This document shows, piece after piece, positions 33,813 through 39,361 of a DNA stretch of 64,000 nucleotides. The DNA is from Pseudomonadota bacterium (GTDB lineage Bacteria > Pseudomonadota > Gammaproteobacteria > Steroidobacterales > Steroidobacteraceae). The stretch is taken from positions 124,001-188,000 of the forward strand of contig JAFEDS010000025.1 in NCBI GenBank assembly GCA_018241505.1. The letters run 5' to 3'. The notes below the pieces were generated by a model that was given only the letters and a program-made list of their open reading frames with translations, made no database searches and had not been told where the DNA came from. The translations under genes and the position numbers were made by a program. Within the stretch, counting starts at the first letter, position 1. Each line of letters starts with the position of its first letter.

Positions 33813-34631
33813 ATGCCGGACGCGTTCAGCCTCAACTACATCGGCCCGATGTCGGACCGCCCGCGGTACTACGCGGACGACGGTTCTCGCGACGTCCTGA
33901 CTTTAGACCCGCGCACCGTCGAAGTTGAGAACGCCCGGTTGCGGGCGCAGCCACATTCCCTGGACCGGGAAGGTTTCACCCTGGTCGCGCACCAAAGCGC
34001 GGTCGCCGACTTCCGCGACCCGCAGGCGCTGGCCACTGTCTACCGGTTGGAAATGCAGCAATTACTGCTCGGATTGACCGGCGCGGACGAAGTTGTCTTC
34101 AGCGCCCTGCCCGTGTGCCGCTCCACGCGGGGCGCGCGCCTGACGGTCGCGAAACAATTCTACAACTCGCGCCCGGGTGAGTTCGTCCATATCGACATCA
34201 GCGCCGCAACCGCCGTTTCCCTGGCCAAACGCTGCGAGCCCAAACATCGTAACGAGCGCGTACGACGCTTCGCTCATTACAACATGTGGCGTGCATTCTC
34301 ACCGCCCCCACAGGATGTTCCGCTCGCAGTTTGCGACTCGCGCAGTGTGTCACCGGCGGACCTGGTCGAAGCCGATGCAGTGATGGACATCCCCGGAAAG
34401 CGGGAATTCTCCTATGTGGGCCTGGTCATCCGTTACAACCCGCGGCACCGCTGGTCCTGGTTCGCGCGGATGAACCGCGACGAGTTGCTCATTTTCAAGG
34501 CCCACGACTCGGACAGCAGTCAGCCGAATCAGGTACCCCACACGGCTTTCCAGGACCCAACCTGCCCGCCAGGTCACGTAGCCCGGGCGAGCATTGAGAT
34601 GCGCGCAATCGCTTACTGGTACGAGCGCTAG
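33813..34631 (+). CDS. CmcJ/NvfI-family protein (2-oxoglutarate-oxygenase-like)
   Basis: This 272-residue protein matches the CmcJ/NvfI family named after the cephamycin 7-alpha-methoxylation partner CmcJ and the fungal oxygenase NvfI. Family marks are PGEFVHIDIS (a potential HxD iron motif), RRFAHYNMWRAFSPPPQDVPLAVCDSRSV (in pieces), YVGLVIRYNPRHRWSWFARM, ELLIFKAHDSD and ARASIEMRAIAYWY. Members hydroxylate or rearrange secondary metabolites; many bacterial ones are uncharacterised. It converges on the GGDEF gene of the borosin-like operon with a four-base overlap, so it is a neighbour but not part of that transcript. Confidence 0.85.
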   Translation: MPDAFSLNYIGPMSDRPRYYADDGSRDVLTLDPRTVEVENARLRAQPHSLDREGFTLVAHQSAVADFRDPQALATVYRLEMQQLLLGLTGADEVVFSALPVCRSTRGARLTVAKQFYNSRPGEFVHIDISAATAVSLAKRCEPKHRNERVRRFAHYNMWRAFSPPPQDVPLAVCDSRSVSPADLVEADAVMDIPGKREFSYVGLVIRYNPRHRWSWFARMNRDELLIFKAHDSDSSQPNQVPHTAFQDPTCPPGHVARASIEMRAIAYWYER

Positions 34632-36463
34632 CCCGCTTTGGATCGCGGCGGCGGCATTTCCGGCGTCGGTTGCTCGACGAGCTCCGCCACTGCCGTCTCA
34701 TCGAGAACGATGCCCGAATCGTAGATGACCACCCGGTTGCGCCCGGTGCGCTTGGCCTGGTAGAGGGCCGCATCCGCATGCGCGAGGAGCTGCCGCAGCT
34801 CGCTGCCCGATGCAGCCGTCGAGGCCAGACCGAAACTGGCGGAGACCGGCGACTCGGTACCCCCCGAGCTGGCCACAATCTGCGCAATCGCCCGCCGCAA
34901 CTGCTCGGCACGAGCGCTCGCCTCGGCCAGGCCGCAGCCGGGCATGAGAATGCTGAATTCCTCGCCGCCAAAGCGCCCGAACAGATCCTCCGCGCCCAGG
35001 AGCTGGCGGCACATCGCCACCGTCTGCTGCAACACGTAGTCGCCCATCGCGTGCCCGTGCCGGTCATTGACGGACTTGAAATGATCCAGGTCGAACAGAA
35101 CGATGCACAGCTCCTGCCGGGTGCGGCGGCCGTGTTCGAGCGCGCTTTCGGCACCGCCAATGAAATGCGGCCGGTTGCTGATGCCCGTCAGGCCGTCGAG
35201 CCGTGCCACGCTCATGAAATGCAACTGCGAGCGCTTGACCCGGTAAGCCCACAGTCCGATGAATACGAGAATGGTGAGCAGCAGCGCAATATACAGGCGG
35301 CTGTTCTCCACCGCCTTGGCGGCCAGCTCCTTCTGAAGCTGCAATACCTGCTTCTGCTCATTCAGGGCGGCGAGCTGCAACTTGTCGGCGATGTTCTCAT
35401 GAACCACCTTTTCGTACGCAAGCTGCCGGGCACTCACCTCATCCAGGCTGCCCTTGTCCGCCGCAGTGAATTGCTCATGAAAAGCCAGCGCCAGCCTGAA
35501 GTCACCCTGTTTTTTTGCCAGCTCGTACAGAACGCCGAGCGCCCGGGCCATGGTGGCTGGATAGTGCCCCTGTCCGCTGTGCGTCACTGAGTCCGAGGCG
35601 AACTTTTCCGCCAGGACGGCCAAACCCTTGCGGCGATAGGCATCGGCCAGCAGCGCATCGAACTCCGCCAGCATCCGCGGATATTGCGACCGGACCACTT
35701 CATCGTAGTGATCCTTCAACAGGGTGATGGCCTCGTCGAGCTTGTTCTGGCTGATGTACAGGCGCGCCACGTGCATGTTGATATCGTTGGCGTACAGAAG
35801 GTCGCCCTTCTCCACGCAGGCAGCCGTGATCGCGCGGACGTCCGCATCGACACTCTGTTGCCGGGCGCTCTCAAAAAGCGCCGCGACCTTCTGCTGGCCG
35901 CCGCGGCACGTGCCCCGGCCGGCATAGTTCTCATCCATCAACATCTGGGCGTAGCGCAGGCTCAGATCGGTCTGCCCCACGGCCCGGTAAAGCTGGGAAG
36001 CATTCAACAGCGCCTGCTCACGGGCGCCTTTGTCGGCCACGCGCGGCAGGAGCTGGACCAGCCGGTCCAGTTCCAGGTACGCCTCGTCATAGTTCCGGGT
36101 GAGCTCCTCCTGGTTCATCAGGGTGGAGCGCGCGCGGAACTGCAGCGTAACGTCGTGGGCCTGCAGAATGAGCCGCTTCAACATCCCGGTCGCGGTCTCG
36201 TTGTCGCCATTGATGACCGCGTTCCATGCGGTCAGGTAGCTCAAGTACTCCCGCTGAGCCACCGACAGTTGCGCCGCACGGGCGTTGAGGGAATTGAGGA
36301 TTCCCACGAATTCCGGGTGATGGGTGCTCTTGATGCTGTCGGCCCGCTGCAACAGCCGCAGCGCATCCTCGGGCGCGGCTCCATTGGCCGCGCCGGCAAC
36401 CAACAGCAGCGCCGCTGCCGCCGGTAACCAGCGCCGAAGACGACTATTCGTCGTCTTCTTCAT
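34628..36463 (-). CDS. TPR-containing membrane diguanylate cyclase (GGDEF)
   Basis: The product (about 611 residues) has a signal segment (RRWLPAAAALLLVAGAANG), a long periplasmic helical TPR-like region, a transmembrane helix (LYIALLLTILVFIGLWAYRV) and a GGDEF domain with DGLTGISNRPHF, FDLDHFKSVNDRHGHAMGDYVL and the active-site FGRFGGEEFSI. The inhibitory RxxD I-site is missing (GAED instead). It should make c-di-GMP in response to a periplasmic signal. I chose the second of two adjacent ATGs because GAGG lies three bases before it; both lie inside the acidic tail of the upstream gene, so translation is coupled to the putative borosin precursor. Confidence 0.9.
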   Translation of the reverse strand: MKKTTNSRLRRWLPAAAALLLVAGAANGAAPEDALRLLQRADSIKSTHHPEFVGILNSLNARAAQLSVAQREYLSYLTAWNAVINGDNETATGMLKRLILQAHDVTLQFRARSTLMNQEELTRNYDEAYLELDRLVQLLPRVADKGAREQALLNASQLYRAVGQTDLSLRYAQMLMDENYAGRGTCRGGQQKVAALFESARQQSVDADVRAITAACVEKGDLLYANDINMHVARLYISQNKLDEAITLLKDHYDEVVRSQYPRMLAEFDALLADAYRRKGLAVLAEKFASDSVTHSGQGHYPATMARALGVLYELAKKQGDFRLALAFHEQFTAADKGSLDEVSARQLAYEKVVHENIADKLQLAALNEQKQVLQLQKELAAKAVENSRLYIALLLTILVFIGLWAYRVKRSQLHFMSVARLDGLTGISNRPHFIGGAESALEHGRRTRQELCIVLFDLDHFKSVNDRHGHAMGDYVLQQTVAMCRQLLGAEDLFGRFGGEEFSILMPGCGLAEASARAEQLRRAIAQIVASSGGTESPVSASFGLASTAASGSELRQLLAHADAALYQAKRTGRNRVVIYDSGIVLDETAVAELVEQPTPEMPPPRSKAG

Positions 36464-36725
36464 CATCCTCGGACTCTTCCTCGTCCTCATGCTCGTCGTC
36501 CTCCCGCTCTTCCTCTTCTTCCTCGGGATGATTGACCAGGCAGCAGATGTTGTGAGTGGCGCCGACCAGGGACTCGAGAAGGCCCGCATCCGGTGCGAGC
36601 ACGGCTGCCCGCACCTCCGGCTCGAATCCGGCCTGGATCAGCGCCGCCTCCCGTGTCTCATCCGAGGCATGGCGCCACCGCGCATCGCCACCCCATTGCT
36701 CGATCACATCAATTACGTTTGGCAT
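36444..36725 (-). CDS. Small leader-like protein with acidic tail; candidate split borosin precursor
   Basis: The 93-residue product divides into three parts. Residues 1-57 form a helical region (VIDVIEQWGGDARWRHAS, REAALIQAGFEPEVRAAVLA, LLESLVGAT) resembling the borosin-binding domain of SonA-type precursors. Residues 59-66 read NICCLVNH, a short hydrophobic segment in the position where SonA is N-methylated. Residues 68-93 are a tail with 23 acidic residues out of 26. AGGA nine bases upstream supports the ATG. The gene overlaps the GNAT stop by 17 bases and the GGDEF start by 20. It lies two genes downstream of a methyltransferase with the OphMA catalytic set. Methylation itself is inference. 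Confidence 0.8.
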   Translation of the reverse strand: MPNVIDVIEQWGGDARWRHASDETREAALIQAGFEPEVRAAVLAPDAGLLESLVGATHNICCLVNHPEEEEEEREDDEHEDEEESEDDEEDDE

Positions 36726-37263
36726 CGATTGCGTTCCTGTTTAATCCGCTGACTGAACGATCCGCCGGCCACGAGTGGCGCCGGGCTGACCAGGTTAACT
36801 TACCGGATTCACCGTCCGTGTTGTGTGACAAACCGAGGCGCACCGGCACGCGCCGCGCCTCCATGTTGTCAGGCGCATGTTGAATCCAAACCTCGTCAAC
36901 TTCAAATGTCGCGAACGCAAAATCGACCAACCCCCGCAGCCCTTCGCTACCGAACCCCCGGCCACGGGCTTCCGACCGGAGCATCATGCCCGCTTCCACG
37001 CGCCGGCGTCGCGTATCGAAGTCTTGAAAAGCGCCAATTCCGATGGATTGGCGGGTGGCCTTTTCAACGATAACCAGCAGGACCCGCTCGACGGGGCGGC
37101 GCCCCAGCGAGGCCAGGACCTGGCGGAAGCGGCGCTGCGCCCGTTCCCGCGACAATGGCGGCCCCACGAACCGCATCGTCCCAGGGTCGCCATACAAATC
37201 GCAATAGAGGGCCGCGTCGGCCTCTTCCGCCCCCCGCATGCTGAGCCGCTCGGTTTCGAGCAC
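36709..37263 (-). CDS. GNAT-family N-acetyltransferase (RimJ-like)
   Basis: This 184-residue protein fits the RimJ/RimL-type GNAT fold: LETERLSMRGAEEADAALY at the start, GDPGTMRFVGPPLSRERA, IGAFQDFDTRRRRVEAGMML, the acetyl-CoA loop SEARGRGFGSEGLRGLVDFA and the PDNMEARRVPVRLGL element. It starts with GTG three bases after the methyltransferase stop, and its end overlaps the next gene. Acetylation of a peptide amino terminus is the family's common activity, so it could act on the putative precursor product, but it could equally be unrelated. The last 30 residues are longer and more basic than usual. Confidence 0.88.
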   Translation of the reverse strand: MLETERLSMRGAEEADAALYCDLYGDPGTMRFVGPPLSRERAQRRFRQVLASLGRRPVERVLLVIVEKATRQSIGIGAFQDFDTRRRRVEAGMMLRSEARGRGFGSEGLRGLVDFAFATFEVDEVWIQHAPDNMEARRVPVRLGLSHNTDGESGKLTWSARRHSWPADRSVSGLNRNAIDAKRN

Positions 37264-37266
37264 GGC

Positions 37267-38061
37267 TCAGGCGATCTGACGTATGTCGAGGGCCGCCAGG
37301 CTGTCCCGCACAGTTGGATCGGCCTGCAGGCTCGACGCCGGCGGAATGACAAGGGTTACATGCGTATCGACACTCGCAGCCGGAAGGTCGCGCAACCGCA
37401 GCCGCTCGACCCGGGGGTGATGCATCGGCAGTGTAACCGCCTTATACAGTATGACTTGGTGATCCAGGTCGTAGTCGCGTGCCAACACGTCCACCAGCAC
37501 CTGCCGGTAGGCGGGGCCGGTTGAGAAGCGCGCCAGGGACTGATCGCCGGCAACACCGATCTGCCACAGCACCAGATAAGCGGAAGTATCGATTCGACGC
37601 CGATACAGCATGTACTGGCTGGCCTCATAGTGCTGACAGCCAAACTTGCCGGGGTCGATACCCAGGTCGGCGTAGAGGCAATCTTCAGCGGAAACACCGG
37701 GCTCCATGTGCGCGGTATAGCCCTCGCGACGTGCGATCTCGATTGCCTTGTGGGTCGGCAGGGCAAACACGCCGGGGTGCCCGTAGAAAGCACCGCAAAC
37801 CCGCTTGCCCGCCCGCACCTCATTCAGCATGGCCTCCACCATCTGCCGATAGGTCTCGCTGCGCGGCTTGCCTTCGCGATAGAAGCTTTGGAGGCTGCGG
37901 ACGTCGGGGTGCATTTTCGCCAACCAGAGCTCAATGACGCCGTCCGACGTGCCAGTAAATACAACATCGGCGTTGCTGATGTAGCTGCGCGCCAGGGGTG
38001 TGATGTGGGAACCGAGCGTCATACCGATTCCCACACAGACCAGACTTCCTGAACCACCCAT
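37267..38061 (-). CDS. SAM-dependent peptide-backbone N-methyltransferase, OphMA/SonM (borosin) type
   Basis: This 264-residue protein has the tetrapyrrole-methylase fold: VCVGIGMTLGSHITPLARS, ADVVFTGTSDGVIELWL, GKRVCGAFYGHPGVFALP, EPGVSAEDCLYADLGIDPG. The catalytic set of the borosin enzyme OphMA (Tyr66, Arg72, Tyr76, Tyr98) appears with identical spacing as Y61, R67, Y71 and Y93, which separates it from uroporphyrinogen-type methylases. It lacks a fused substrate, as in split systems such as SonM. I chose the ATG after GGGGGTGG, 25 bases downstream of the TonB-like stop; an open frame continues 46 codons upstream without support. A small leader-like gene lies two genes on. The predicted reaction is iterative methylation of peptide amide nitrogens. 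Confidence 0.9.
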   Translation of the reverse strand: MGGSGSLVCVGIGMTLGSHITPLARSYISNADVVFTGTSDGVIELWLAKMHPDVRSLQSFYREGKPRSETYRQMVEAMLNEVRAGKRVCGAFYGHPGVFALPTHKAIEIARREGYTAHMEPGVSAEDCLYADLGIDPGKFGCQHYEASQYMLYRRRIDTSAYLVLWQIGVAGDQSLARFSTGPAYRQVLVDVLARDYDLDHQVILYKAVTLPMHHPRVERLRLRDLPAASVDTHVTLVIPPASSLQADPTVRDSLAALDIRQIA

Positions 38062-38086: not shown

Positions 38087-38974
38087 TCAGTTGCGAATGC
38101 TGAACGTAACCAGGAAAGGATAGCAGGAGCTGACCGCTCGGCCATCTTCGAGCGTGGCCCGATAGTGGCCGGAACCTGCTTTCGCGAGGCGCAATGCACC
38201 CTGATCCAATCCCGCGCTGCCCGACGTTTTCGCGAGAGTCGGCTCCGCAGTCAGCCGGCCCTTTTCATCCGTGCAGACAGTGACCGCCGCGGTGCCCTGT
38301 GTGCCGGTCCGGATCTCGTGAGGAGGATAGTAATCATCGGTGTTGGGAAAACCCTTGCCGGGTCCTCCCTGCACCCGCTTGACCGGAGGCGGCTGCGTCA
38401 CCGGGGTGGTTGGCACGTCGGGCGGTCCTTTCACATCCGGAATCACGAACGTCGTTGCAACGTTCTCGAAATCGATCGGGAAGTCCGGCGTGGGGATCGA
38501 AACCTTGTGCATATGTTCCAGATCCGTTGGCGGTGGCAGCGGCGGCGGGCGATCGACCACTCTGCGCTCGTCCTTGATCACGACCGGCGCCGGGTCGATC
38601 ATCACCACGACTTTTTGCACCAGGCCCGTGGCGAAGGCCCACACAATCAGGCCGTGCAGGCCGGTGATGCCGAGTACGGCCACCGTCCGCCCCGACACAA
38701 ACGAAAGGTCTACCCCCGCGTGCTGCGAGCTCGTCGCGACGGCGCCGCTGCCGGCGGTCGCGGCGGCCACTTTCGGCTCGAGGTACTCGTGAGCGATGAC
38801 ATGGGTCGCCCAGACACACCCGACGCCAAAACGCAGGCGCGCCAGTTGACTTTGGCGCTCGGCGAAATCAGCCAGCCATTCCTCCTCCAACCGTTCGGCG
38901 AGCGACTCAGGCGCCCGGCGTGCGGCATGTTGGACCAGGGAGCGAGCAATTCCATTCACGAGATTGTTTTTCAT
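38087..38974 (-). CDS. TonB C-terminal domain protein with N-terminal prefix helices
   Basis: This 295-residue protein starts with a helical segment (RRAPESLAERLEEEWLADFA) like the prefix domains encoded next to PadR genes, followed by a transmembrane helix (VAVLGITGLHGLIVWAFATG), a proline-rich stretch (VVDRPPPLPPPTDLEH, PVTQPPPVKRV) and a TonB-type C-terminal domain (EIRTGTQGTAAVTVCTDEKG and SCYPFLVTFSIRN). It could transfer energy to an outer-membrane receptor or sense the envelope. Its ATG overlaps the PadR stop as ATGA. It is the second gene of the run leading to the methyltransferase. Confidence 0.85.
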   Translation of the reverse strand: MKNNLVNGIARSLVQHAARRAPESLAERLEEEWLADFAERQSQLARLRFGVGCVWATHVIAHEYLEPKVAAATAGSGAVATSSQHAGVDLSFVSGRTVAVLGITGLHGLIVWAFATGLVQKVVVMIDPAPVVIKDERRVVDRPPPLPPPTDLEHMHKVSIPTPDFPIDFENVATTFVIPDVKGPPDVPTTPVTQPPPVKRVQGGPGKGFPNTDDYYPPHEIRTGTQGTAAVTVCTDEKGRLTAEPTLAKTSGSAGLDQGALRLAKAGSGHYRATLEDGRAVSSCYPFLVTFSIRN

Positions 38975-39279
38975 GTCGTCAGGACCCCTCGGCCGAAGCT
39001 TGCGAAGACCTCACTTGCCCGTGCAAGACCACTCGGTGTCAGCCGATAGAGCCGCCGCCGCGGGCGTCCGACGCTCGCGGGATCAACGGCCTCCCACCGG
39101 CTCACAAACCAACCAGCAGATTCCAGTCGCAGGAGAATGGGATACAAGGTGCCCGAGGCGAGTCCGCTCCGCTTCTGCACATCCGAACCCGACATCTCGT
39201 CGGAGGGGCTCTCCAGGAAGGCTTCCAGCGTACGGAGGGTCTGGAGGGACATCCGTACATTACGTTCTTGCTTACCCAT
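38971..39279 (-). CDS. PadR-family transcriptional regulator
   Basis: This roughly 102-residue regulator shows the PadR winged HTH: MSLQTLRTLEAFLESP, SGSDVQKRSGLASGTLYPILLRLESAGWF and the wing GRPRRRLYRLTPSG. The start may be the ATG used here or an ATG nine codons later (39252); neither has a strong ribosome binding site. It is the first gene of a six-gene minus-strand run (PadR, TonB-like, methyltransferase, GNAT, small acidic protein, GGDEF), each overlapping or spaced by under 30 bases. It probably represses this operon. Confidence 0.88.
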   Translation of the reverse strand: MGKQERNVRMSLQTLRTLEAFLESPSDEMSGSDVQKRSGLASGTLYPILLRLESAGWFVSRWEAVDPASVGRPRRRLYRLTPSGLARASEVFASFGRGVLTT

Positions 39280-39342
39280 GGTTGTAACTCTACATAGGGT
39301 GCGCGACGGATGCAAGCCGACCGTTGTGCTTGCTGCCGCAAG

Positions 39343-39361
39343 TACTTTACACTGCAAAGTA
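39343..39361. promoter_or_regulatory. Inverted repeat in the PadR-PAP2 divergent spacer
   Basis: TACTTT-N7-AAAGTA is a perfect six-base-arm inverted repeat, three bases before the PAP2 ATG and 64 bases from the PadR start. It is a possible PadR operator serving both directions. Evidence is position and symmetry only. Confidence 0.4.

Follow-up and report, generated by a model that had tools for sequence, protein, structure and literature searches.

The 64,000-nucleotide stretch analysed here (the window; contig JAFEDS010000025.1, positions 124,001 to 188,000, of the Steroidobacteraceae genome assembly GCA_018241505.1) carries on its minus strand what we read as a type IV (split) borosin operon. 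The operon is of a known kind and occurs in a four-gene form, with genes for a methyltransferase (M), a GNAT acetyltransferase, a precursor (A) and a membrane protein with a sensor region and a GGDEF domain (the partner). M and A are very probably a split-borosin enzyme and its substrate, and the probable product of the operon is a peptide or protein methylated on its backbone. A first-pass annotation made by a model from the letters alone had given no role to the GNAT gene in the middle and had not extended to the GGDEF gene; both genes seem to belong to the system. The surprising element is the receptor-like partner and not the enzyme pair. That the product serves the sensor cyclase is a tentative and somewhat doubtful proposal, drawn from gene order and co-occurrence.

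When M was searched with phmmer against all PDB chains, the best match was SonM (E 1.6e-76, query residues 5-249), and the OphMA-type enzymes matched at E 1e-46 to 1e-51. The top match among the cobalamin enzymes was precorrin-2 C20-methyltransferase at E 3e-4, and the NCBIfam cobalamin models gave 18.3 and 18.1 bits against cut-offs of 246.35 and 391 bits, respectively. Pfam assigns M to TP_methylase, and in its own genome M is the sole match at E <= 1. The first-pass annotation had proposed an OphMA-type enzyme, and by the phmmer and NCBIfam scores M indeed groups with SonM and OphMA, away from the cobalamin and sirohaem methylases. The residues Y61, R67, Y71 and Y93 lie where they had been claimed, and no core or substrate tail is fused to the enzyme. 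In the phmmer alignment they stand opposite Y58, R67, Y71 and position 93 of SonM, where Y58, R67 and Y71 are named as active-site residues (PMC8429565). In an alignment of the query with 33 further M sequences, Y61 is kept in 32/34, R67 in 33/34, Y71 in 32/34 and Y93 in 33/34, and the rows deviating at Y61, R67 or Y71 are L018 and L040. In SonM the SonA leader wraps around the loop 208-216 (PMC8429565). This docking loop is recognisable in the M family, with L211 in 26/34 and P212 in 27/34 rows; it is altered in L018, L040 and L045 to L047, all without A, and also in L014 and one L016 copy, both with A. Judged by its sequence, M is a SonM-type backbone N-methyltransferase.

The M homologues of L018 and L040 have lost active-site tyrosine residues as well as the motif of the A-docking loop, and neither an A nor a GGDEF gene was found in the stretch examined, which in L018 is a short contig with 0.9 kb upstream and 2.4 kb downstream of M. 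Perhaps these two are no longer borosin enzymes. The loci L016 and L017 hold two M genes each, 1 to 2.4 kb apart.

For A, single-sequence searches against Pfam, NCBIfam and PDB gave chance or acidic-tail matches only, so that its relationship to SonA is visible by family profile only. The profile was made from an alignment of 18 sequences spanning leader and core (the A of the window and 17 from related loci). Its top seven PDB matches are chains named SonA in SonM structures (E 2.2e-4 to 8.8e-4; two of the seven are shown aligned), and the next matches are acidic tails at E 0.03 or weaker. With Shewanella-type members added to the profile, SonA is matched at E 1.9e-15, a figure which the added members help. 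Profile positions 1-61 align with SonA 1-61, and the borosin-binding domain of SonA comprises residues 1-53 (PMC8429565); by sequence profile, a separate precursor with a borosin-binding domain is present. The first-pass annotation had described a separate 93-residue protein with a leader-like domain and a short NICCLV segment as a candidate precursor, comparing it with SonA-type ones. This protein exists, NICCLV occupies its residues 59-64, and the proposal is supported by the profile match and by A-like genes near M at 27 of the 32 compared loci (partly recognised by eye). We place A in the SonA family on this profile evidence. The 32-locus set keeps near relatives. It omits L025 (which duplicates L020), brief extracts of loci covered at greater length elsewhere, and L027 to L032 beyond four longer ones (L041, L045 to L047); L048, which has no M, is not counted. 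Counts were taken from tblastn tables, as crude gene calling was misled by antisense open reading frames (ORFs), which hid the TonB_C gene of the window.

Among close members of the A family whose leader is complete, all but L013 have the first residue of the hydrophobic pentamer at position 56-60; the script looked for the pentamer beyond residue 52 in full-length A and beyond residue 24 in short A, and the reported position is partly set by this choice. SonA is methylated at L63/I65 (PMC8429565), and through L083 in alignment A3 Cys62 and Val64 of A fall on positions 63 and 65. These two residues are our best guess for the methylation sites, and in an alternative register, without the one-residue gap of the alignment, the sites would be Leu63 and Asn65. 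Aspartate and glutamate make up 79% of residues 65-93. Behind the core, the A of the window and most of its relatives carry an acidic tail; that of the second A in L021 is almost neutral, and in L037 and L039, the two loci with the gene fusion described below, the tails are rich in lysine instead. The Shewanella-type A proteins (L015, L041, L043, L044) have 0-10 residues after the hydrophobic segment.

The sensor-GGDEF gene is a constant companion of A. A GGDEF match was obtained at 25 of the 27 A-bearing loci; at the remaining ones the contig ends inside the relative of the partner (L014) or a hybrid histidine kinase with tetratricopeptide repeats (TPR) is found (L044). The five loci without A (L018, L040, L045 to L047) gave no GGDEF match. 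Overall the count is 25/32, the seven without being L014, L018 (2.4 kb downstream), L040, L044, L045, L046 and L047. The genes of L013 are arranged as A, GGDEF, GNAT, M, and the gene set thus survives rearrangement, while in L080 the sensor-GGDEF gene lies on the opposite strand. The partner of the window, a predicted diguanylate cyclase, has an intact GGEEF motif, and a signal peptide and a membrane helix were noted by eye. It has no Pfam TPR match at 0.01; its relatives have weak to clear TPR matches, and among PDB chains the family profile picks up TPR proteins at about 1e-6. The 26 ORFs that passed the motif script all carry an intact GGEEF or GGDEF, and L006 and L043, missed by the pattern, have GGEEF in their translations. 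In L043, L044 and L087, TPR-type hybrid histidine kinases adjoin borosin methyltransferases, alongside the GGDEF protein or replacing it.

The co-occurrence was followed in genome samples of the order, class and phylum. In the order sample (296 genomes) M is found at E 1e-25 or better in 13 genomes, six of them at at least 72% identity, the sensor in six (1e-20) and the A profile in six (1e-3). The close M, A and the sensor are in the same six genomes with adjacent genes, and the other seven M-bearing genomes (40-43% identity) contain neither sensor nor A. The plain hypergeometric value is 1e-12, which relatedness inflates. In the class sample (369 genomes) M is found at 1e-60 in five genomes, and the sensor in two, both with M at at least 68% identity. 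The phylum sample (364 genomes) gave 16 M matches in 14 genomes at 1e-40, and for all 16 loci the flanks were covered to roughly 5 kb or beyond on both sides; only in L081 does the contig stop earlier, 1.9 kb upstream of M. In 13/16 loci the flanks contain GGDEF, and 11 of these 13 match a sensor query (not L082 and L085). The exceptions are L044 and L087 with a histidine kinase, assigned to the TPR type by Pfam and by similarity to L044, respectively, and L088 with neither, so that a GGDEF protein or a TPR-type histidine kinase accompanies 15/16. The 7.88 Mb genome of the window has 52 matches to the GGDEF protein, corresponding to about 0.07 expected per 11 kb in that genome; even at a density of 0.2 the binomial value for 13/16 is 2.5e-7. 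A-like ORFs were recognised at 12/16 loci by a loose pattern and by eye, and none in L080, L084, L087 and L088.

The GNAT protein of the window is an Acetyltransf_3 protein, which we take to be RimJ/RimL-like, and relatives occur at 18/32 compared loci. In two loci M and GNAT form one open frame, of 455 codons in L037 and 452 codons in L039. This in-frame fusion is the best evidence that GNAT acts in the pathway, and the natural joining of a methyltransferase to an acetyltransferase suggests a second modification. No link between the presence of GNAT and the CC motif of the core was seen by eye.

The closest described system is SonM/SonA of Shewanella oneidensis (type IV, PMC8429565), which like the window has a separate methyltransferase and a leader-plus-core precursor encoded together, with the same active-site residues and the core right after a leader of about 53 residues. 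In contrast to SonM/SonA, the predicted core of A in the window is CCLV and is followed by a long charged tail, and M and A are separated by a GNAT gene. A GGDEF gene follows A in an uncultured-Shewanella locus (L015), and this arrangement may be shared with Shewanella-type loci. The fused fungal borosins OphMA and dbOphMA have a methyltransferase domain homologous to M, but their core is fused to the enzyme, whereas that of the window is on a separate protein. The partner shares a GGDEF domain with intact GGEEF with membrane sensor diguanylate cyclases; what sets it apart is its sensor region, which in the two samples searched was confined to genomes with a close M. In a word search, the main text of PMC8429565 does not mention GGDEF, diguanylate or acetyltransferase. 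The Figure 1 legend of PMC11395268 explains 'GGDEF' as a domain in drawn borosin architectures, in passages that leave the borosin type unspecified, and some link between borosins and GGDEF is therefore already in print. A full-text literature search for borosin with diguanylate cyclase, c-di-GMP or tetratricopeptide retrieved no paper, with GGDEF only PMC11395268, and with N-acetyltransferase one review. The novelty of the receptor link is not established, and earlier publication is possible.

In the mechanism that we propose the helical N-terminal leader of A would dock on M, which would methylate backbone amides in the hydrophobic segment right after the leader via the SonM-like Tyr/Arg/Tyr residues. 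GNAT would acetylate the same substrate or product, where a processed N-terminus is a guess, and the charged tail would be a follower. The sensor-GGDEF protein would then have the methylated product, or the precursor in its methylated form, as its dedicated input, and cyclic di-GMP would be adjusted in this way.

Several observations weigh against this proposal. GNAT is present at only 3/16 loci of the phylum sample, the A of the window lacks the RVARAG-like ending common to many relatives, and the GGDEF protein of L041 has a 7TMR-DISM sensor and not TPR. The three class-sample genomes G024, G580 and G640 (M 43-46% identity) have no match to the sensor of the window; a different GGDEF gene lies near M in G580, and a TPR histidine kinase near M in G640. 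The six order genomes belong to two genera of one family, and shared descent inflates the 6/6; moreover, the three samples share genomes, including that of the window, and per genome only the best candidates were scored (5-6 for the sensor, 17 for A). By eye and without a dedicated search, neither a signal peptide on A nor a protease or exporter gene in the operon was noticed, so that the meeting of product and periplasmic sensor is unexplained. Finally, the genome of the window has a second sensor-GGDEF gene without M (G000:C42, L048:3893-6062; 50% identity over residues 10-588), the only other match there that covers the sensor. It is preceded by a 94-codon A-like gene (A2) starting with MSNVIDLLQRLG, whose product has a brief hydrophobic stretch and an acidic tail but hardly any leader. 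A2 could be an additional substrate served in trans or a relic, or it could indicate that an A-like protein is itself the partner of the receptor. Short leaders are also found beside M, as in L017 and L081.

The last of these options leads to an alternative which we regard as rather unlikely, namely that A in its own right acts as a protein partner to the sensor-GGDEF receptor, with methylation tuning it and no small peptide natural product released. Besides A2 and its sensor gene, the long charged tails on A and the lack of any protease gene noticed nearby (no dedicated search) fit this idea, but A belongs with SonA by family and its gene lies near M, and A2, which has lost most of its leader but keeps the hydrophobic segment and acidic tail, may be a second substrate or a relic. 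We give a similarly low chance to the view that the borosin chemistry is right and the GGDEF gene merely a frequent neighbour, the role of the peptide lying elsewhere, for instance in antagonism, in metal handling or in the inhibition of proteases. Protease inhibition is reportedly discussed in a 2024 paper on the function of borosins (ACS Chem Biol). Genes can be adjacent and co-occur without being functionally linked, and nothing for export or processing was noticed among the neighbouring genes, again without a dedicated search. However, the restriction of the sensor region to genomes with a close M (6/296 and 2/369) and the 15/16 phylum loci with a GGDEF protein or TPR-type histidine kinase, compared to the low GGDEF density in the genome of the window, argue against a chance neighbour. 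That M is an ordinary cobalamin or sirohaem methylase and A unrelated is extremely improbable: it has the Pfam name TP_methylase on its side, which covers the whole fold, and was rejected as it is refuted by the SonM and cobalamin scores, the cobalamin models below their cut-offs and the match of the A family to SonA.

The features are listed in Table 1. The gene order on the minus strand is PadR-like, TonB_C, M, GNAT, A and sensor-GGDEF. The overlapping run described in the first-pass annotation holds for GNAT and A (17 nt) and for A and the GGDEF gene (23 nt, given a start of the latter at 36466), but M and GNAT are separated by 3 nt. The PadR-like and TonB_C genes were rejected as parts of the operon, as tblastn in 44 other locus stretches found TonB_C in none and PadR in one (L076). 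The loci L045, L046 and L047, three of five same-genus genomes with such an M, contain more distant M homologues (301-303 aa) and no SonA-like A or GGDEF match. About 100-130 bp past M they have a 48 aa frame (in L047 from an inner ATG) ending in ISITIVL or VVIVLVL, a candidate precursor without binding domain.

Table 1. Features of the putative split-borosin operon and its upstream neighbours (window positions).
Feature	Position	Strand	Description	Evidence
M	37267-38061	-	264 aa, predicted SonM-type split-borosin alpha-N-methyltransferase	phmmer against PDB, Pfam TP_methylase
GNAT	36709-37263	-	184 aa, GTG start, Acetyltransf_3 acetyltransferase	Pfam PF13302, E 1.3e-25
A	36444-36725	-	93 aa, predicted SonA-family precursor	family profile against PDB
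A, leader	36567-36725	-	residues 1-53, predicted borosin-binding domain	alignment with SonA
A, core	36525-36551	-	residues 59-67, NICCLVNHP, predicted core	hydrophobic 5-mer ICCLV and SonA register
A, tail	36447-36524	-	residues 68-93, acidic C-terminal tail (follower)	residue composition
Sensor-GGDEF partner	34628-36466	-	612 aa, TPR-type	Pfam GGDEF, E 5.6e-38
Partner, sensor region			about residues 30-395	
Partner, GGDEF domain	34733-35203	-	residues 422-578	
TonB_C gene	38087-38974	-	directly upstream of M	
PadR-like gene	38971-39357	-	upstream of M	

It is conceivable, and we put it forward with reserve, that the SonM-type bacterial borosins as a family serve membrane receptors as dedicated ligands or partners, these receptors being mostly TPR sensors with GGDEF or histidine-kinase output, and that a ribosomal N-methylated peptide signal would thereby act on cyclic di-GMP, with acetylation added in some branches. 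The receptor-like gene that accompanies the precursor offers a direct, testable proposal for the role of borosins, and the sensor gene travelling with the operon suggests that such products may be signals that control a bacterial second messenger.

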